Of a DNA stretch of 64,000 nucleotides, positions 45,597 through 54,961 are shown in pieces. This stretch comes from Sediminibacterium sp. (GTDB taxonomy: Bacteria; Bacteroidota; Bacteroidia; Chitinophagales; Chitinophagaceae): the NCBI RefSeq assembly GCF_019264485.1, contig NZ_JAHVAA010000006.1, positions 62,001 through 126,000 of the forward strand, given 5' to 3'. Both the position numbers and the translations under genes were made by a program. Below the pieces are notes generated by a model. It saw nothing but the letters and a program-made list of their open reading frames with translations. It ran no database searches and was not told the origin of the DNA. Each line of letters starts with the position of its first letter. The stretch's first letter is position 1.

Positions 45597-45638
45597 TCTA
45601 CCTATTTGGTAGGGAATACATTTTTCCCCCTATCTTTG
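45597..45638 (+). promoter_or_regulatory. cys operon promoter with overlapping 17-bp operator
   Basis: The palindrome TCTACC-TATTT-GGTAGG (45597-45613) overlaps the -33 TTG (45606-45608). A perfect -7 element TATCTTTG follows at 45631-45638, 22 bp further. Transcription should begin about 45645, directly before the riboswitch. Sites of the same 6-5-6 geometry stand before cobA and the TonB receptor. Confidence 0.65.
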
Positions 45639-45654
45639 TACTCGTTCTTATACA

Positions 45655-45768
45655 TTCTTATCAAGAAAGGCGGAGGGAATTGGCCCTGTGAAGCCTTGGC
45701 AACCACTTCATCATTTATTTGGAAAAGGTGCCAAATCCGGTCCCGATAAAATCGGGATAAGATAAGTC
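45655..45768 (+). ncRNA. SAM-I (S-box) riboswitch aptamer
   Basis: The conserved S-box sequence elements are present in order: P1 5' strand CTTATC (45657-45662), CAAGAAAGGCGGAGGGAA, GGCCCTGTGAAGCC followed by TTGGCAACC, GGTGCCAAATCC (from 45727), a P4 hairpin TCCCGAT/ATCGGGA (45741-45757), and P1 3' strand GATAAG (45761-45766). SAM-I riboswitches turn off methionine and cysteine genes when SAM is abundant. Here it precedes the sulfate-assimilation operon. Confidence 0.94.
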
Positions 45769-45804: not shown

Positions 45805-45839
45805 AAGGCATTCTGACTGAGCATCGGGTGCCTTTTTTT
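45805..45839 (+). terminator. Riboswitch expression-platform terminator
   Basis: AAGGCATTC (45805-45813) pairs with GGGTGCCTT (45826-45834), followed by a seven-T run. The loop-side CTGACT (45813-45818) is complementary to AGTCAG (45765-45770) at the aptamer's 3' edge, so an antiterminator can form when P1 is open. Confidence 0.8.
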
Positions 45840-45870: not shown

Positions 45871-45948
45871 ATGCAATTCAACACTATGACACATTTATCA
45901 ATCGGAAACAGCACCTGCTGTTGTTGTACCGTTATTAAGGTTGACTGA
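45871..45948 (+). CDS. Cys-rich leader peptide (four consecutive Cys codons)
   Basis: A 25-codon ORF, MQFNTMTHLSIGNST then CCCC then TVIKVD, with Cys codons TGC TGT TGT TGT at 45916-45927; a shorter version could start at 45886. It lies downstream of the riboswitch terminator and 50 bp before cysH. The Cys codons form the 3' arm of a small hairpin (AACAGC/GCTGTT). Ribosome stalling on these codons when Cys-tRNA is scarce could control cysH; polycysteine leader ORFs with this role are known in mycobacteria. No Shine-Dalgarno is seen, which is usual in this phylum. Translation is not proven. Confidence 0.6.
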   Translation: MQFNTMTHLSIGNSTCCCCTVIKVD

Positions 45949-45998
45949 TACTGTTCATACCTGCGCTTGCCGCACTTTCATCGATCCAAACAAAAAAC

Positions 45999-46739
45999 AT
46001 GTCACAAGTTCACAATAGCAGCACTGCTGCAGCTTTACAACAACAAATACGGGATCGCTCTATTGAAGAGGCGATACAATTACTCGTGGCAGCATACCCG
46101 GGTGCGGTAACTTTCTCTACCAGTTTTAGTTATGAGGATCAGGTGATAACTGATATCATTCAAACCCATGAGTTCCCGGTATCATTATTTACACTCGATA
46201 CAGGTCGTCTTTTTCCTGAAACCTATAGCACCTGGAGCCGTACGCTGGAATTTTATAAAACCAGTATCAAAGCCTATTATCCCGATGCGCAGGCATTGTC
46301 TGATTATATAGAAACCAATGGCCCCAACGCATTTTATGATTCACCGGAACTGAGATCAGCCTGTTGTACCATCCGAAAAGTGATACCGCTGAAAAAAGCA
46401 TTGGCAGGTAATGCCATCTGGATCACAGGTTTGAGGGCAGAACATTCACCTGCACGACATGATCTCACACCCATTGAATGGGATGCGGCGAATCAAATAA
46501 TAAAATATCATCCATTACTACACTGGACAACCGAAGAAGTAAAACAGTATATCCATCAAAAAGCCATACCCTATAATCCTTTACACGATAAAGGTTTTGT
46601 GAGCATTGGTTGTGCACCCTGTACAAGGGCTATTAAACCGGGAGAAGATTTCAGGGCGGGTCGCTGGTGGTGGGAAGACAATAGTAAAAAAGAATGTGGA
46701 TTGCATTCGCATGAACCTAAAAAAACAGCAGAAGCATGA
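45999..46739 (+). CDS. cysH: Assimilatory adenylyl-sulfate (APS/PAPS) reductase
   Basis: A 246-residue thioredoxin-dependent reductase that makes sulfite from activated sulfate. The substrate region includes FSTSFSYEDQ and TLDTGRLFPET; C122-C123 and C205-x2-C208 are the ligands of a [4Fe-4S] cluster, and the catalytic Cys is C233 in KKECGLH. The cluster cysteines mark the APS-reductase (bacterial type) rather than the cluster-free PAPS enzyme, consistent with the absence of an APS kinase in the island. Its stop overlaps the cysD start by 4 bp. Confidence 0.95.
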   Translation: MSQVHNSSTAAALQQQIRDRSIEEAIQLLVAAYPGAVTFSTSFSYEDQVITDIIQTHEFPVSLFTLDTGRLFPETYSTWSRTLEFYKTSIKAYYPDAQALSDYIETNGPNAFYDSPELRSACCTIRKVIPLKKALAGNAIWITGLRAEHSPARHDLTPIEWDAANQIIKYHPLLHWTTEEVKQYIHQKAIPYNPLHDKGFVSIGCAPCTRAIKPGEDFRAGRWWWEDNSKKECGLHSHEPKKTAEA

Positions 46740-47644
46740 GTGCGTACAGATTAGATTATTTAGATCAGCTAGAATCGGAAGCCATACATATTATGCGTGA
46801 AGTGGCCGGGCAGTTTGAAAAACCTGCACTTTTATTTAGTGGGGGTAAGGATTCAATTACGCTGGTACACCTTGCCCTGAAAGCATTTCGTCCGGGTAAA
46901 TTTCCTTTTCCACTGGTGCATATTGATACGGGCCACAATTTTCCCGAAGCCTTACAGTTCAGGGATGAACTGGCGGCAACTATTGGTGAAAAATTAGTGG
47001 TACGTAAGGTAGAAGACACCATCAAATCCAGACAACTTACCGAGCCCAAAGGAAAGTTTGCCAGCAGAAATGCATTGCAGACCTATACTTTACTTGATAC
47101 GATAGAGGAATTTGGTTTCGATGCCTGTATCGGTGGTGCGCGAAGAGATGAAGAGAAAGCAAGGGCCAAGGAAAGAATATTTTCAGTGAGAGATGAATTT
47201 GGTCAATGGAACCCCAAGCTCCAGCGCCCCGAATTATGGAACACCTATAATGGCCGGATCAGTAAGGGAGAAAATGTGCGGGTGTTTCCTATCAGTAACT
47301 GGACGGAACTGGATATCTGGAATTATATCAAAAGAGAAAATATTGCATTACCCTCTATTTATTTCGCACACGAGCGTACTGTTTTGGAACATGAAGGACA
47401 ATTGATTGCCTTATCTGAATTTATACAACTGGATGATACAGATTCAATCGTTACCAAAAAAGTACGCTACCGTACTGTTGGCGATATGACCTGTACGGCC
47501 GCTGTAGAATCAAGTGCATCAGGCATTGACGATATCATCCGCGAAATTACCGCCACTAAAACAAGTGAGCGTGGTGAAACCAGAATTGATGATAAAGTAA
47601 GTGAAGCGGCGATGGAAGACAGAAAAAAGAATGGTTATTTCTAA
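46736..47644 (+). CDS. cysD: Sulfate adenylyltransferase subunit 2
   Basis: A 302-residue ATP-sulfurylase small subunit: PP-loop LLFSGGKDSITLVHLALKA (about 32-50), VHIDTGHNFPE and GGARRDEEKARAKERIFSVRD, ending with the family tail AAMEDRKKNGYF. Uses ATP to adenylate sulfate together with CysN. Coupled to cysH by an ATGA overlap; cysN follows after 11 bp. Confidence 0.97.
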   Translation: MSAYRLDYLDQLESEAIHIMREVAGQFEKPALLFSGGKDSITLVHLALKAFRPGKFPFPLVHIDTGHNFPEALQFRDELAATIGEKLVVRKVEDTIKSRQLTEPKGKFASRNALQTYTLLDTIEEFGFDACIGGARRDEEKARAKERIFSVRDEFGQWNPKLQRPELWNTYNGRISKGENVRVFPISNWTELDIWNYIKRENIALPSIYFAHERTVLEHEGQLIALSEFIQLDDTDSIVTKKVRYRTVGDMTCTAAVESSASGIDDIIREITATKTSERGETRIDDKVSEAAMEDRKKNGYF

Positions 47645-47655
47645 AAACAAAACAA

Positions 47656-48897
47656 ATGGACTTACTCCGATTTATAACAGCTGGCAGTGTAGATGATGGT
47701 AAATCGACCCTGATTGGGCGTTTACTGTTCGACAGTAAATCAATCATGATCGATCACCTCGAAGCCCTGGAAAAACAAAGTAAAAACAAGGAAGATGGTG
47801 AGATTGATCTTGCGCTATTGACCGATGGTTTGCGTGCAGAACGTGAACAGGGTATTACCATTGATGTGGCTTACAAATATTTTGCTACACCCAAACGTAA
47901 ATTTATCATTGCCGATGCGCCGGGTCATATTCAGTATACAAGGAATATGGTAACGGGTGCCTCCAATTCAGACCTGGCAATTATTCTTGTTGATGCACGT
48001 CATGGTGTGGTAGAGCAAACACGTCGCCATTCCATCATCACTTCTTTGCTGAATATTCCACATGTGGTGGTGGCGATTAACAAAATGGACCTGGTAGATT
48101 TTTCGCAGGATGTGTACAATAATATCGTGATTGACTATGCAGAAGTGGCGAAAAAACTCGGCCTGAAAGACGTTCGTTATATTCCTATCAGTGCATTGAA
48201 TGGCGATAATATAGTAGCAAAAACAGCAGCATTAACATGGTACGAGGGTCCTTCATTACTGGATATCCTGGAAACGGTAGAGCTTGCAGACGATATTGAT
48301 CTGGAAAAAGCCCGTTTCCCTGTTCAATATGTCATTCGACCACAGACAGAAGAACTGCATGATTATCGTGGTTATGCCGGAAAAATTAACAGCGGTATTT
48401 ATAAAAAGGGAGATGCTGTAACGATATTACCTGCAGGTTTCAGCAGTACCATAAAAGCCATTGAACACAATGGAAAAGAAGTAGACGAAGCATTTGCACC
48501 ACAGAGTGTGGTAATACACCTGGAAGACGATATAGATATCAGCCGCGGTGACCTGATTGTGAAAAATGATAACCGGCCAAAAGTATCGAATGAAGTGGAG
48601 GCGCTATTATGCTGGATGGATCATAAAGCGCTGGTGCCTGGCAATAAATATTTATTACAGATTAACAGCAAGCAGGTTCGTTCGGTGGTAAAAGAGGTAA
48701 GTTATAAACTGGATGTTCATTCATTGGAACAGATAGCATCACCCGAAACAGTAGCATTAAATGATATTGTAAAAGTAACCATTAAAACGGCGAGCCCGGT
48801 AGCATACGATGCTTACCAGGAACTGAGAACCAATGGCGGAGCTATTCTCATTGACGAAACAAGTCATGTTACCGTTGGTGCATGCATGATTCAATAA
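47656..48897 (+). CDS. cysN: Sulfate adenylyltransferase subunit 1 (GTPase)
   Basis: A 413-residue EF-Tu-like GTPase that drives sulfate adenylation. G1 GSVDDGKSTLIGRLLFDSK (about 11-29), G2 region EQGITIDVAYKYF, G3 DAPGHIQYTRNM and G4 NKMDLVD are present, followed by two beta-barrel domains. It ends without an APS-kinase (CysC) domain, as its length shows. Confidence 0.96.
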   Translation: MDLLRFITAGSVDDGKSTLIGRLLFDSKSIMIDHLEALEKQSKNKEDGEIDLALLTDGLRAEREQGITIDVAYKYFATPKRKFIIADAPGHIQYTRNMVTGASNSDLAIILVDARHGVVEQTRRHSIITSLLNIPHVVVAINKMDLVDFSQDVYNNIVIDYAEVAKKLGLKDVRYIPISALNGDNIVAKTAALTWYEGPSLLDILETVELADDIDLEKARFPVQYVIRPQTEELHDYRGYAGKINSGIYKKGDAVTILPAGFSSTIKAIEHNGKEVDEAFAPQSVVIHLEDDIDISRGDLIVKNDNRPKVSNEVEALLCWMDHKALVPGNKYLLQINSKQVRSVVKEVSYKLDVHSLEQIASPETVALNDIVKVTIKTASPVAYDAYQELRTNGGAILIDETSHVTVGACMIQ

Positions 48898-48902
48898 AAA
48901 CT

Positions 48903-49736
48903 ATGGCAGCAGCGCAATTCATACAACAATTATTTCAGCGTAACTGGAAAACACACCAGACTTTCCCGGATAAACAGCTGGCAGAGAGTTTTATAGACGA
49001 CCTGTTCAATTTTTTATTTGGCTCTTACGAAAAAAAATTCAACTCGGCTGAAAAGCTGGCGGTTGAATATGCTGAACTGCGACATACTTTTTCAGCAATC
49101 CTGTTTGAGCTTATCAAAGATGAAACCATTGTAAAAGAACATACAGCTTCTTTCTTTGATAAATTATCTGCTATTTATGAAGCATTACTAAAAGATGCGC
49201 AGGCTGTACTGGAATTTGACCCTGCTGCGCAATCAATTGAAGAAGTGCTGGTAGCTTATCCCGGTTTTTATGCTACTGCTATTTATCGTTTATCGAACCA
49301 GTTGTATCGTCAGCAGATAAAAACATTACCGCGTCTGTTTGCAGAATATGCACACAGTAAAACGGGTATTGATATTCATCCGGGAGCCACCATCGGCGGT
49401 TCATTTGCCATTGATCATGGAACCGGAATCGTAATTGGCGAAACAGCAATCATTGGTGAGCGGGTGAAGATATACCAGGGGGTTACATTGGGTGCATTGA
49501 ATGTAGCCAAGGAACTGGCCAGTACCAAACGTCACCCAACCATTGACGATGATGTAATTATTTATTCCGGTGCTACCATTTTAGGAGGAGAAACAGTGAT
49601 TGGTGCGGGTAGTATAATCGGAGGTAATATATGGCTCACACATAGTGTGGCGCCAAATTCTGTGGTGTATCATAAAAGTGAAATAAAAATAAAAGATAAA
49701 GATCCATTTCCTGAACCATTAAATTTTGTGATTTAA
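48903..49736 (+). CDS. cysE: Serine O-acetyltransferase
   Basis: A 277-residue enzyme that makes O-acetylserine, acceptor of sulfide. The N-terminal helical domain (to about 135) precedes a left-handed beta helix with hexapeptide repeats: IDIHPGATIGGSFAIDHGTG, GVTLGAL, and GATILGGETVIGAGSIIGGN; catalytic Asp and His lie in DHGTG and KRHPTI. The N-terminal part is longer than in E. coli CysE, like EpsC-type forms. The ATG at 48903 lies 5 bp after the cysN stop; an earlier in-frame ATG at 48882 would overlap cysN. Confidence 0.93.
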   Translation: MAAAQFIQQLFQRNWKTHQTFPDKQLAESFIDDLFNFLFGSYEKKFNSAEKLAVEYAELRHTFSAILFELIKDETIVKEHTASFFDKLSAIYEALLKDAQAVLEFDPAAQSIEEVLVAYPGFYATAIYRLSNQLYRQQIKTLPRLFAEYAHSKTGIDIHPGATIGGSFAIDHGTGIVIGETAIIGERVKIYQGVTLGALNVAKELASTKRHPTIDDDVIIYSGATILGGETVIGAGSIIGGNIWLTHSVAPNSVVYHKSEIKIKDKDPFPEPLNFVI

Positions 49737-49745
49737 AAAAATAAC

Positions 49746-50657
49746 ATGAAAGCAAATAACATTTTAGCAACGATTGGTAATACACCACATGTTCGCATCA
49801 ACAAATTATTTGGCAGTCAGCATGAAGTATGGATTAAGCTGGAAAAAAACAATCCGGGTGCAAGCATCAAAGATCGTATTGCATTGTCGATGATTGAAGA
49901 TGCAGAACTGAAAGGTCTGCTTACCAAAGACAGTGTAATTATTGAACCTACCAGTGGTAATACCGGAATTGGACTGGCGTTGGTGGCTGCAGTAAAAGGC
50001 TATAAAATTATTCTGGTGATGCCCGAGAGCATGAGTATTGAGCGGAGAAGACTGATGGCTTTGTACGGAGCAGAATTTGTATTAACGCCACGCGAAAAGG
50101 GAATGAAGGGCGCTATTGAAAAAGCAACCGAACTAACTGAAACCACCCCACATGCATGGATGCCCCAGCAGTTTAATAATCCGGCCAATACAGAAGTACA
50201 CAAAAGAACAACAGCACTGGAGATACTGGCCGATTTTCCGGAAGGGCTGGATTATCTTATTACAGGCGTTGGTACGGGTGGACATATTACCGGTGTTGCG
50301 GAAATACTGAAAGAGAAGTTTCCATCACTCAAAGTATTTGCGGTGGAGCCTGAACTATCACCGGTATTAAGTGGTGGTGCTCCCTCACCACACCCTTTGC
50401 AGGGTATTGGTGCGGGTTTCGTTCCATCTATTTTAAATACAGCTGTACTGGATGGTATTATACTGGTTGGTAAAGATGAGGCTTTCTCTTTCGCACAGCG
50501 TGCGGCAAAAGAAGAAGGTATTTTGCTGGGTGTATCATCGGGCGCATCATTGGCTGCGGTAGCAAAAAAATTACCCGAAATACCGGCAGGTTCCAAAGTG
50601 CTCACTTTTAACTATGATACAGGGGAAAGATATTTATCTATTGAAGGATTATTTTAA
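49746..50657 (+). CDS. Cysteine synthase (O-acetylserine sulfhydrylase)
   Basis: A 303-residue fold-type II PLP enzyme. PLP Lys in [12 protein letters not shown] (about 37-48), substrate loop [10 protein letters not shown], phosphate loop [10 protein letters not shown] and the C-terminal GVSSGAS are all present. It condenses O-acetylserine with sulfide to give cysteine. CysK and CysM cannot be separated with confidence from sequence; it ends the first cys transcription unit, before a terminator. Confidence 0.95.
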
Positions 50658-50665
50658 TTTCTTTT

Positions 50666-50703
50666 CCCTGCTCCGGATTTAAATCCTGAGCAGGGATTTT
50701 TTT
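50666..50703 (+). terminator. Terminator after cysteine synthase
   Basis: The 15-nt arms 50666-50680 and 50681-50695 pair with one mismatched pair and are followed by a T-run. The centre GGATTTAAATCC equals the centre of the palindrome at 16271. Confidence 0.85.
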
Positions 50704-50714
50704 AGCAATAATAA

Positions 50715-50731
50715 TCTACTAAAAAAGTAGA
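50715..50731 (+). promoter_or_regulatory. 17-bp sulfur-operator candidate before cobA
   Basis: TCTACT-AAAAA-AGTAGA, perfect 6-nt arms, ends 2 bp before the start codon. It matches in spacing and sequence the sites at 45597 and 55056. The position would block transcription or initiation of translation if occupied. Confidence 0.6.
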
Positions 50732-50733
50732 CA

Positions 50734-51588
50734 ATGAGTAAGCAACCAACATATGGCAAAGTAATCCTCGCATCAGCAGGCCCTGGCGATCCCGAACTGG
50801 TAACAGTGAAAACGGTTCGCTGGCTGCAACAGGCTGATGTAGTATTAACAGATCGTTTGGTGAGCCCGGATATTCTTACCAATTACGTGAACAATAAAAC
50901 GGAGATCATCTATGTGGGTAAACAATGCCGCAGAGGAATATCTACTTCGCAGCAAACCATCAATGAATTATTGGTTGAGCAGGCATCAAAAAATAAAATT
51001 GTGGTTCGTTTAAAAGGAGGTGATACCAGTATTTTCTCCAATGTACTTGATGAACTGGAAACATTGGTGCAACACAATATTCCTTACGAAATAGTTCCGG
51101 GTGTAACGGCAGCCTTGGGTGCAGCAGCTTATGCGGGTATTCCCTTAACAGCAAGAGGGTTATCTGTAGGTGTTCGTTTTCTTACCTATTATAAATCTGA
51201 TATTGTTAGCGGCGACACCTGGAAAGAACTTGCAGATACAGATGATACACTGGTATTTTATATGTCTGGAGAAACATTGTCAACCGTAGTGGAACAACTT
51301 ACGCTACATGGTATTGATGCAGCTAAAAAGCTGGCAGTAATAGAACAGGCTACCACTCCCTTACAACAAATTCATACCTGTGATCTTTATCAGTATGCAG
51401 ATCAGTTAAAGGATAAAACATTCCGTTCACCCTCACTGGTCATCATTGGTAAAGTAGTATCGTTGCATGAACAGTTTGCATGGCTACCCAATATAAACAG
51501 TACAGAACATTATTTCACACCTCTTACCGGAAGACTTACTCAGTTAGAAGACACCACAACTAAAAAAAGACATGTTAGCAGAGCCTAA
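50734..51588 (+). CDS. cobA: Uroporphyrinogen-III C-methyltransferase (SUMT)
   Basis: A 284-residue SAM-dependent methyltransferase that makes precorrin-2 for siroheme, the cofactor of sulfite reductase. The N-terminal ILASAGPGDPELVTVKTVRWLQQADVVLTDRLV and the RLKGGDTSIFSNVLDEL motif (about 90-105) identify it; GVTAALGAAAYAGIPLTARG follows. The last 17 bp overlap cysJ. The later steps of siroheme synthesis are provided by the fusion protein at 57961. Confidence 0.95.
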   Translation: MSKQPTYGKVILASAGPGDPELVTVKTVRWLQQADVVLTDRLVSPDILTNYVNNKTEIIYVGKQCRRGISTSQQTINELLVEQASKNKIVVRLKGGDTSIFSNVLDELETLVQHNIPYEIVPGVTAALGAAAYAGIPLTARGLSVGVRFLTYYKSDIVSGDTWKELADTDDTLVFYMSGETLSTVVEQLTLHGIDAAKKLAVIEQATTPLQQIHTCDLYQYADQLKDKTFRSPSLVIIGKVVSLHEQFAWLPNINSTEHYFTPLTGRLTQLEDTTTKKRHVSRA

Positions 51589-53263
51589 ACTGAAAATATT
51601 AGCCGATTTCATTGGCCAGCTCAATAAAGAAGAATTGATCTGGGTGAATGGATATTTGTCTGGCCTCGTAGCAACGCCACTCAAAGAGCCTTCGATAGTT
51701 GCTAATGGCACTACTGCCAAAAAAGTAACCATCGCATACGGAACAGAAACCGGTAATTCAAAAAAGCTGGCTACCGATTTTGCAGCAAAAGCAAAAAAGA
51801 AAGGTATTCAAATCAGGCTGGTAAGTCTGGATCAGTATAAACTGACTGATCTGCCTAAAGAAGAATACTTTCTTACCGTCATCAGTACACAGGGTGATGG
51901 AGAACCCCCGGTTACGGCACAAAAATTTTATGACCATATACATAATAATGGATTTAAGCTGCCGCAGTTAAAATATGGTGTACTGGCATTGGGTGATACA
52001 GCTTATCCTTTATTCTGTAAAACAGGGGAAGATGTAGACAAGCAGTTACAACACTTAGGTGCACAAAGAATAGCTGCGCTGCAAAAATGTGATCTTGATT
52101 ATGAAAGCACCGCCGACCAATGGTTTGATACGGTTTTGCAGCAATTACAGGTAACAGAAAATAAAGTGCCGGTAATTACAGCACCCGCAGAGACCAAAAA
52201 ACCGGCAGGGAAATTATATTATGATGGTATTGTTCAAACGCATATTAACCTCACTGCAAGAGGGTCATCTAAAAAGATTTACCATATTGAACTGGTAGCA
52301 GAAGGAGTAGATTTTTTACCCGGTGACTCGATTGGTATTGTTCCGGAAAATGATTCATTACTGGTTGATCAATTGTTACAACTGGTTTCGGTTGATGGAA
52401 ACCGTACTATTACCTGGAAAAATGAAACAGCTTCGATCAGGGAATTACTGATTTCAAAAATCAATATCAGTTACCTGCTGGAGAAATCTGTAAAGCATTA
52501 TGCAACGGTAACGGGATATGAAATACCTGCGGCTAAAACAGATCTGTTATCATTATTGAAACAATATCCCCTCCAAAAACCGGAATTGTTTGAGCAGGTG
52601 GTTGATGGATTAACACAGATTGTACCCCGTATTTACAATATTGCTTCCTCTCCCGGTGCACATAATGGCGAAGTGCATATCACCGTATTGCGTGATGTGT
52701 TTAATAAAGAAGAAGGTGAACAGACAGGCTTGTGTACACAGTATTTGGAAAATAAAAAAGAGGGAGATACTGTTCGTTTTTTCATTCAAAGCAATAAAAG
52801 ATTCCGCTTACCCGCTCCTGATAAAGATATTATCATGATTGGCCCTGGAACAGGTATTGCTCCATTCCGGTCCTTTGTTGCGGAAAGAGATACGATGGCC
52901 GCAAGTGGCAGGAACTGGTTGTTTTTTAGCGAGGATAAGTTTACGACCGATTTTTTATACCAAACCGAATGGCAGGCATGGTTTGAAACAGACACTTTAA
53001 CAAAAATCAGTCTGGCTTTCAAAAATGAAGATGAAAAACCAGCGAGCCTGGCCGATAAAATTATAACGCAGGGGAATGAATTATTTGAATGGCTTGAACA
53101 GGGTGCATTCTTATACCTCTGTGGAGAAAAAGAACCGGCAGGAAAAGCCATAGAAGAAGCATTACTAAAAGTATTTGAAAACCAAACCGGAGATAAAATC
53201 AAGGCTAACACCTACTTTGAAAACCTTAAAAAAGAAAACCGTTACGCCAAGGACCTCTATTAA
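51572..53263 (+). CDS. cysJ: Sulfite reductase flavoprotein alpha subunit
   Basis: A 563-residue diflavin reductase: flavodoxin domain (about 50-195) with AYGTETGNSKKLA, an FAD-binding insert (about 215-430) with RIYNIASSP and GLCTQYLE, and an NADPH domain with MIGPGTGIAPFRSFV and the terminal YFENLKKENRYAKDLY. It carries electrons from NADPH to CysI. The gene overlaps cobA and is followed by cysI after 39 bp. Confidence 0.95.
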   Translation: MLAEPKLKILADFIGQLNKEELIWVNGYLSGLVATPLKEPSIVANGTTAKKVTIAYGTETGNSKKLATDFAAKAKKKGIQIRLVSLDQYKLTDLPKEEYFLTVISTQGDGEPPVTAQKFYDHIHNNGFKLPQLKYGVLALGDTAYPLFCKTGEDVDKQLQHLGAQRIAALQKCDLDYESTADQWFDTVLQQLQVTENKVPVITAPAETKKPAGKLYYDGIVQTHINLTARGSSKKIYHIELVAEGVDFLPGDSIGIVPENDSLLVDQLLQLVSVDGNRTITWKNETASIRELLISKINISYLLEKSVKHYATVTGYEIPAAKTDLLSLLKQYPLQKPELFEQVVDGLTQIVPRIYNIASSPGAHNGEVHITVLRDVFNKEEGEQTGLCTQYLENKKEGDTVRFFIQSNKRFRLPAPDKDIIMIGPGTGIAPFRSFVAERDTMAASGRNWLFFSEDKFTTDFLYQTEWQAWFETDTLTKISLAFKNEDEKPASLADKIITQGNELFEWLEQGAFLYLCGEKEPAGKAIEEALLKVFENQTGDKIKANTYFENLKKENRYAKDLY

Positions 53264-53302
53264 AATTCACCATTGACCATTCACCCTTCACGAAACACCT
53301 CT

Positions 53303-54961
53303 ATGTCAAATAGCAAACCCTCACCCATAGAAAAAATAAAAACCTCCAGTAAAGGTCTCCGTGGCACATTGCAGGAGAGTTTGCAGGATGAAATTACCGG
53401 TGCCGTTCGTGAGCAGGATCACGCACTGATTAAATTTCACGGTATGTATGAACAGGACGACCGTGATGTACGTGAAGAACGGGCAGCAAAAAAATTAGAT
53501 AAGTTATATTCATTTATGATACGGCTGCGTATACCTGGTGGGTATATGAAGGCAGATCAATGGGTGGCAGCACATCATATTGCAGGGAATTATTCAACAG
53601 GTGTTGTCAAGATTACCACCAGACAAACCATACAATTGCATGGTATTCTTAAACACCAGATAAAACCAACGCTTCAGGATTTTAATGCAGTTCATCTCGA
53701 TTCAATTGCAGCCTGTGGTGATGTAAACAGGAATGTAGCCTGTACCAGTCATCCTTCAGAATCGCCCATACACGAAGAAGTGCATGCCTATGCTGATAAG
53801 ATCAGTCGTTTGTTATTGCCTAAAACAAGGGCTTTTTATGAAATATGGCTGGACGAAGAAAAGCTGGTTGAGTACGATGAAACAGATCCATTGTATCAGG
53901 ACCGTTACCTGCCGAGGAAATTTAAAATCGGTATTGCCATCCCGCCCAATAATGATGTAGATGTGCTGACAAATGATCTTGGTTTGATAGCTATTATTGA
54001 AAACGGAAAACTCACCGGTTTTAATATTGCTGTGGGGGGTGGCTTATCTACTACACATGGTAATCCGGATACTTATGCAAGACTGGCAACTGTGATTGGT
54101 TTTACAGCAGGCGAAGAAAAAACACTGAAGGCAGTGTATGAAGTGCTGACTATACAAAGAGATTTTGGTAATCGTTCAGATCGTAAGCTGGCACGACTCA
54201 AATATACACTCGACAAAATGGGTATTGATGCATTCAGAAAAGAACTCGAACAACGTTGTGGTTTTGAATTAGAAGAAACAAAACCATACAATTTTACAGC
54301 AAGAACAGATCGATATGGATGGCAGGCCGATCATCGTGGTAACTGGCATTATACTTTATTTGTTGAAAATGGAAGGGTAACCGATGAGGTTGATGTTCCG
54401 TTGAAAACGGCACTCCTGGAGATAGCAGAAACCGGTAAAATTATTTTCCGTTTTACCAGTAATCAAAACCTGATTCTAAGTGAAATTCAACCTGATGATA
54501 AACCAGTGATAGAAAGTATACTGCAGCGGTATGGTATTTTGGAAAGAGATGAATCAATTGGTCTCATGCGAAAAAATTCAATCGCCTGTGTGGCTTTGCC
54601 TACCTGTCCGCTGGCCCTTGCAGAAGCACAAAGATACCTGCCTTCACTTATCAGCAGTCTTGAACCCTTACTGGAAAAACACCAGTTAAAAGAAGAAGGT
54701 ATTATTACGAGAATGACGGGCTGTCCCAATGGTTGTGCCCGCCCTTATGCAGCCGAAATTGGATTGGTGGGTACGGGCCCCGGGCGTTATAATCTTCATT
54801 TGGGTGGCGACCGCGAAGGAACAAGATTGAATACCAGGTACAGGGAACAATTAGATGAAGCAGGCATATTAAGTGAGCTCGATATAGTGTTTGATCAGTA
54901 TAATAAAAATAAAAAGGAGCAGGAAAATTTTGGAGATTATGTGCAGCGGACCATATTATAA
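53303..54961 (+). CDS. cysI: Sulfite reductase hemoprotein beta subunit
   Basis: A 552-residue siroheme and [4Fe-4S] enzyme that reduces sulfite to sulfide. The cluster/siroheme Cys are in CVALPTC (C-x5-C) and CPNGC (C-x3-C), and the repeated ferrite-reductase domains show GGYMKADQW, TTRQTIQLHG and NRNVACTSHP. An upstream in-frame ATG at 53273 adds ten residues with no similarity; the start at 53303 is preferred. Bases 53268-53293 contain ATTCACCATTGACC-type repeat text. Confidence 0.95.
   Translation: MSNSKPSPIEKIKTSSKGLRGTLQESLQDEITGAVREQDHALIKFHGMYEQDDRDVREERAAKKLDKLYSFMIRLRIPGGYMKADQWVAAHHIAGNYSTGVVKITTRQTIQLHGILKHQIKPTLQDFNAVHLDSIAACGDVNRNVACTSHPSESPIHEEVHAYADKISRLLLPKTRAFYEIWLDEEKLVEYDETDPLYQDRYLPRKFKIGIAIPPNNDVDVLTNDLGLIAIIENGKLTGFNIAVGGGLSTTHGNPDTYARLATVIGFTAGEEKTLKAVYEVLTIQRDFGNRSDRKLARLKYTLDKMGIDAFRKELEQRCGFELEETKPYNFTARTDRYGWQADHRGNWHYTLFVENGRVTDEVDVPLKTALLEIAETGKIIFRFTSNQNLILSEIQPDDKPVIESILQRYGILERDESIGLMRKNSIACVALPTCPLALAEAQRYLPSLISSLEPLLEKHQLKEEGIITRMTGCPNGCARPYAAEIGLVGTGPGRYNLHLGGDREGTRLNTRYREQLDEAGILSELDIVFDQYNKNKKEQENFGDYVQRTIL

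Follow-up and report, generated by a model that had tools for sequence, protein, structure and literature searches.

Conserved polycysteine leader ORFs, probably cysteine-responsive, before cysH and cysS in Chitinophagaceae

The window analysed here, 64,000 nucleotides of Sediminibacterium sp. DNA, carries on its forward strand an operon whose first gene, cysH (45999..46739), encodes a (phospho)adenylyl-sulfate reductase (NF002537, 256.8 bits; PF01507). It is followed by cysD, cysN, a cysE-like gene, cysK, a cobA/cysG methylase gene, a cysJ-like gene and cysI (46736..54961; NCBIfam and Pfam assignments). Upstream of cysH the sequence TATCTTTG (45631..45638, forward strand) matches the Bacteroidota -7 promoter consensus TAnnTTTG, as given in the accessible part of PMC7366714. 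The 15-nt palindrome CTACCTATTTGGTAG (45598..45612) overlaps the probable -33 region of this promoter and, judged by its sequence, may be an operator, making it a candidate repressor site. Riboswitch-less leaders of other loci (e.g. L008 and L012) instead have GTAGAC/TAGACTA repeats surrounding the -7 box, which are likewise candidate repressor operators.

Between promoter and operon lies a leader ORF, MQFNTMTHLSIGNSTCCCCTVIKVD, which reads on the forward strand from an ATG at 45871 to a TGA ending at 45948 (25 amino acids) and is conserved in relatives; translation might alternatively begin at an internal ATG at 45886. Its most prominent feature is a row of four Cys codons (TGC TGT TGT TGT, 45916..45927). 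The spacer between its stop codon and cysH measures 50 nt (45949..45998), and a scan for intrinsic terminators with loops of 3–8 nt detected none there. The preliminary description had placed a four-Cys-codon ORF 50 bp before cysH and past a riboswitch terminator, and the sequence bears out both coordinates and distances. RNA folding indicates a small hairpin, AACAGC-ACCT-GCTGTT (45907..45922), in which the Asn-Ser codons face the Cys codons; by the same analysis the complete window leader has no more structure than expected (z -0.73 against shuffles).

Upstream of the leader ORF, at 45655..45768 of the same strand, is a SAM-I riboswitch aptamer (RF00162; Rfam, 88.9 bits, E 8.3e-20), well identified in that the gathering cut-off is 44.4 bits. 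A hairpin AAGGCA..TGCCTT followed by a T-run, found by eye at about 45805..45839, is its probable terminator; our scan did not list it because its loop exceeds 8 nt. Riboswitches were surveyed with Rfam on 60 loci and with a covariance model built from eight matches. A SAM riboswitch oriented like cysH precedes that gene together with a polycysteine ORF in 12 loci, the window included, namely those of the window clade and eight others, while L098 and L270 have the riboswitch without a counted polycysteine ORF. The stacked arrangement thus recurs in several lineages, though most leaders have no riboswitch in this orientation. It had been proposed that the operon senses SAM first and Cys-tRNA charging second; the riboswitch does lie upstream in the window clade and a few other lineages, but in this orientation it is absent from most leaders of the family, so that two-layer control would belong to these lineages and not to the system as a whole. 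Other genera have a SAM riboswitch on the opposite strand upstream of cysH; the 17 such cases apparently serve a divergent gene.

The sequence TGYTGYTGYTGY occurs 76 times on the two strands of the 3.64-Mb genome, as against 5 occurrences of the backwards control, and we estimate the probability of one such Cys run in a given leader of ca. 170 nt at roughly 0.002. Given the 76 sites, such a run is by itself no more than moderately improbable, and conservation was therefore examined. Among 135 cysH upstream regions of Chitinophagaceae, 70 contain a short ORF in which three or more Cys codons follow one another, usually just before the stop, and 89 have at least three Cys within eight residues. 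The same test on control genes from the same fetched loci gave 1/499 and 12/499, respectively. The remaining 46 family upstreams score below three of eight, a few of them with a CC leader. A further 76 cysH upstreams, a mixed set that includes some records titled Chitinophagaceae, yielded a run of at least three in 16 and at least three of eight in 20. Both sets were restricted to non-redundant loci that have 150 nt or more of upstream sequence; the family loci are those with the closest cysH (30 + 100 loci of 196 matching genomes), so that distant cysH genes are under-sampled. From a set drawn from many Bacteroidota, oriented and freed of duplicates, three of the 102 loci were excluded for their short upstream regions; in 30 of the remaining 99, cysH is preceded by a short ORF that starts with ATG and contains three or more consecutive Cys, compared with 0.14% of 9,900 dinucleotide shuffles. 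The region near cysH showed no run of at least three Cys in the Spirosoma, Larkinella, Prolixibacteraceae and Flavobacterium loci examined. The preliminary description called the run very improbable by chance: conservation confirms that it is not a chance occurrence, yet it is less rare than had been claimed, and the case for it rests on conservation rather than rarity. The comparison of relatives that it had called for found the Cys run kept (70/135) while the remaining peptide diverges.

The family cysH uORFs specify peptides of 13–45 amino acids whose N-termini differ while the Cys block is retained; MLFASTSLKLYPCCCC, MKRFSHNTPMSFCCKSKCCC, MFRSQTIHIMYISCCNKYCCCC and MEKMKKYMCCCCCCR have in common only a Cys block near the stop. 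Of the 85 family uORFs that end no more than 140 nt from the start codon, a few doubtful ORFs among them, 57 specify a peptide ending in Cys and 79 one with Cys among its final three residues; stop and ATG are separated by a median of 55 nt. Twenty disjoint close pairs of leaders were compared for codon changes: within Cys codons the differences at positions 1/2/3 number 13/13/26 over 117 codons, i.e. mostly silent third-base changes, compared with 58/49/66 over 263 other codons. A -7 box occurs within 60 nt upstream of the uORF start in 80 of 103 leaders, with a peak at 20–30 nt, and the uORF therefore probably comes first among the ORFs of its mRNA. Six uORFs (L178, L195, L208, L244, L269 and L277), and others, have two Cys clusters with an Asn codon between them (CC-N-x-CCCC), and the AAC of this codon could pair with Cys codons.

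A second leader of this type was found in the same genome by inspecting the sequence around every run of four TGY codons (65 distinct sites). Fifty-nine of these sites fall within larger ORFs. Among the rest, just two short leader ORFs are directly followed by a gene, cysH in one case and cysS in the other. The cysS leader ORF, MKLKCIFICCCCC, lies 69 nt before the gene for Cys-tRNA ligase (TIGR00435, 413.8 bits), at about 169006–169047 of the same contig and outside the window, and the -7 box TATCTTCG sits 7 nt before its ATG. For the best 30 of 117 family genomes the cysS leader is present in 18–20: an ATG-started uORF scoring at least three of eight occurs in 19, of which L313 has by eye no convincing Cys block, and in L305 a Cys block, also recognized by eye, follows a GTG start. 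In 16 of the 19 a -7 box lies 4–10 nt before the uORF ATG, so the cysS uORFs, like those of mycobacteria, may have little or no leader sequence ahead of them. In another family approximately one of the 30 cysS loci listed, from 58 matching genomes, has a clear leader (L374), and the polycysteine leader is accordingly rare outside Chitinophagaceae. A pattern search for five Cys codons proved a poor finder of leaders, with many matches of other kinds; several of its matches lie just before cysS starts. In six cysS leaders the uORF is followed immediately by another -7-like box (TACTTTTG, TACCTTTG, TACATTTG); this may be an internal promoter from which cysS is transcribed without its uORF.

By sequence comparison, then, a conserved polycysteine leader appears at two functionally linked loci in Chitinophagaceae, and is more general than first claimed. 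The two targets, cysteine synthesis and tRNA charging, are those that a Cys-tRNA sensor predicts. We consider it very probable that the leader ORF measures the charging of tRNA-Cys, that stalling at the Cys block raises expression, and that the same device precedes cysS. The preliminary suggestion of a cysteine-responsive leader gains support from the conserved Cys run and is strengthened by the independent second locus. We infer that the uORF is translated and that, when Cys-tRNA-Cys is scarce, ribosomes would stall on its Cys block; the stalled ribosome would prevent the leader RNA from shutting off the operon, so that the products of cysH-cysD-cysN-cysE-cysK-cobA-cysJ-cysI would be made. 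With cysteine plentiful the ribosome would reach the nearby stop codon and leave, and expression would fall; cysS would be controlled in the same manner. In the window the SAM riboswitch would act first, the operon thus being gated by SAM and then by cysteine. The data suggest that ribosomes stalling for want of cysteine may turn up the cysH operon and cysS in many bacteria of one family. Rather more tentatively, Bacteroidota may possess a cysteine regulon in which Cys-tRNA-sensing leaders govern the cysH operon and cysS, sometimes behind a SAM riboswitch (SAM and Cys-tRNA being sensed on one mRNA), and in which, in part of the family, the Cys codons serve as both sensor and switch by pairing with the start region.

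If this is correct, polycysteine attenuation arose outside Actinobacteria, and a natural mRNA uses a riboswitch to sense SAM and the ribosome to sense Cys-tRNA. Two testable targets are hereby named in culturable Chitinophagaceae (Sediminibacterium). The phylum Bacteroidota is mostly without Shine-Dalgarno sites, and these leaders offer a route to ask how stalling is read out where Shine-Dalgarno pairing is rare.

The nearest parallels, so far as the accessible portions of the cited papers describe them, are the polycysteine leaderless short ORFs of mycobacteria (Canestrari 2020; Shell 2015, PMC4633059), which share the C-terminal Cys block and the position before sulfur or cysteine genes. As in the mycobacterial type, a short Cys-block ORF lies directly upstream of cysteine/sulfur genes, and by analogy the window and family leaders may work like the mycobacterial attenuators. 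They differ in belonging to another phylum with no detectable relation, and in having cysS as a target. The mycobacterial uORFs are moreover leaderless, whereas that of the window begins ca. 230 nt after the -7 box and behind a SAM riboswitch, for which reason we do not claim membership in that type. An independent origin is presumed, the peptides being too short and divergent to compare. The leader peptides of actinobacterial cys operons and cbs (PMC1262725) resemble ours in their Cys codon runs near the stop and in the lack of a conserved terminator, differing in phylum and in the genes they precede. The uORFC-8-2 motif of Rhodobacterales (PMC8632094) is a Cys-codon uORF before cysS with proposed ribosome-mediated attenuation; this alphaproteobacterial element has two Cys codons, a conserved two-stem RNA and a terminator U-run. 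With respect to these last features, a complement search (not a covariance model) showed post-stop complements in some of our cysS leaders. In Bacteroidota, leader peptides precede amino-acid operons of Flavobacterium psychrophilum, with no cysteine leader named in the available text of PMC9723704, and leader-like short ORFs are described for Bacteroides, likewise without mention of cysteine in the available text of PMC7366714. The open-access literature (PMC), as far as its accessible text extends, yielded cysteine leader ORFs for Actinobacteria (PMC1262725, PMC4633059, PMC9094748, PMC13236596) and Rhodobacterales and none for Bacteroidota.

Other readings of the same observations must be weighed. 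The Cys codons might be a chance or RNA-level repeat, TGTTGTTG being kept for its pairing with AACAAC and not for translation; TGY runs are indeed common in the genome (76 sites) and complementarity in the spacer exceeds that of shuffles. Yet 59 of the 65 own-genome sites are in larger ORFs and only two of the remainder have the anatomy of a leader, an ATG and a stop frame the Cys run in members of the family, and the changes in Cys codons are mostly silent, all of which makes this reading very unlikely. Still less likely is a role for the encoded peptide, namely that of a small Cys-rich protein, metal- or redox-binding, whose co-transcription is mere happenstance. Cys blocks could bind metal, but everything except the block diverges, length included, and the only two loci in the genome concern cysteine supply and Cys-tRNA charging. 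Least likely of all, we believe, is a uORF that merely supplies ribosomes to cysH by re-initiation without sensing cysteine, since the fairly constant stop-to-ATG distance that would suit it leaves the presence of Cys codons at exactly cysH and cysS unexplained. As for the manner in which a cysteine sensor would be read out, the terminator that a trp-type transcription attenuator places between leader ORF and first gene was not detected in the window. Rho might instead load on the untranslated spacer and end transcription before or within cysH, the stalled ribosome shielding the RNA. The terminator scan agrees with this, Rho is encoded in the genome (TIGR00767, 629 bits), in several cysS leaders complements follow closely on the stop codon, far from the cysS start, and a Rho read-out was proposed for Actinobacteria in the accessible part of PMC1262725; we regard it as possible but doubtful, because in several clades complements occur 12 to 14 nt before the cysH start, which speaks for translation.

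These complements would serve a translational read-out in which, in several clades, Cys codons no longer covered by ribosomes pair with the start region of cysH. A complement of at least 7 nt to the Cys block occurs in 27 of 103 spacers, against a shuffle mean of 8.2 and a maximum of 14; the count drops nine leaders and those uORFs ending more than 140 nt away, and adds four kinds of CC-only leader picked by eye. A cluster of them begins 12 to 14 nt before the cysH ATG; examples of complements are the pairs TTCTGTTG/CAACAGAA, CGTGTTG/CAACACG, GCTGTTGTTG/CAACAACAGC and TGCAATTGTT/AACAATTGCA. Such a complement (at least 7 nt) was present in 17 of 37 cysH start regions and 8 of 106 other start regions. 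Among 51 dereplicated leaders, however, cognate pairing was no better than non-cognate (at least 7 nt in 5 versus 5.46; mean length, p 0.03), TGTTGTTG fitting any AACAAC, and anti-initiation pairing as a proven mechanism is rejected for now. The cysH start region of the window has a complement of 5 nt only. Further downstream, TACAACAACA in cysH codons (46036..46045) could pair with TGTTGTTGTA of the Cys run, over 8 nt inside the block and, judged by eye, over 10; this weak candidate pairing is not conserved in L004, and the scan behind it left out five leaders and had three added by eye. Post-stop hairpins with a complement of at least 7 nt are in modest excess in cysH leaders (15/98; shuffle mean 5.25), and the corresponding signal in 18 cysS leaders is weak. 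On balance we lean towards translational control over Rho-dependent termination. A further element, ACCACCACCACCGG or similar, which is not complementary to the Cys codons, is conserved just before the cysH ATG in five loci of Puia and its relatives.
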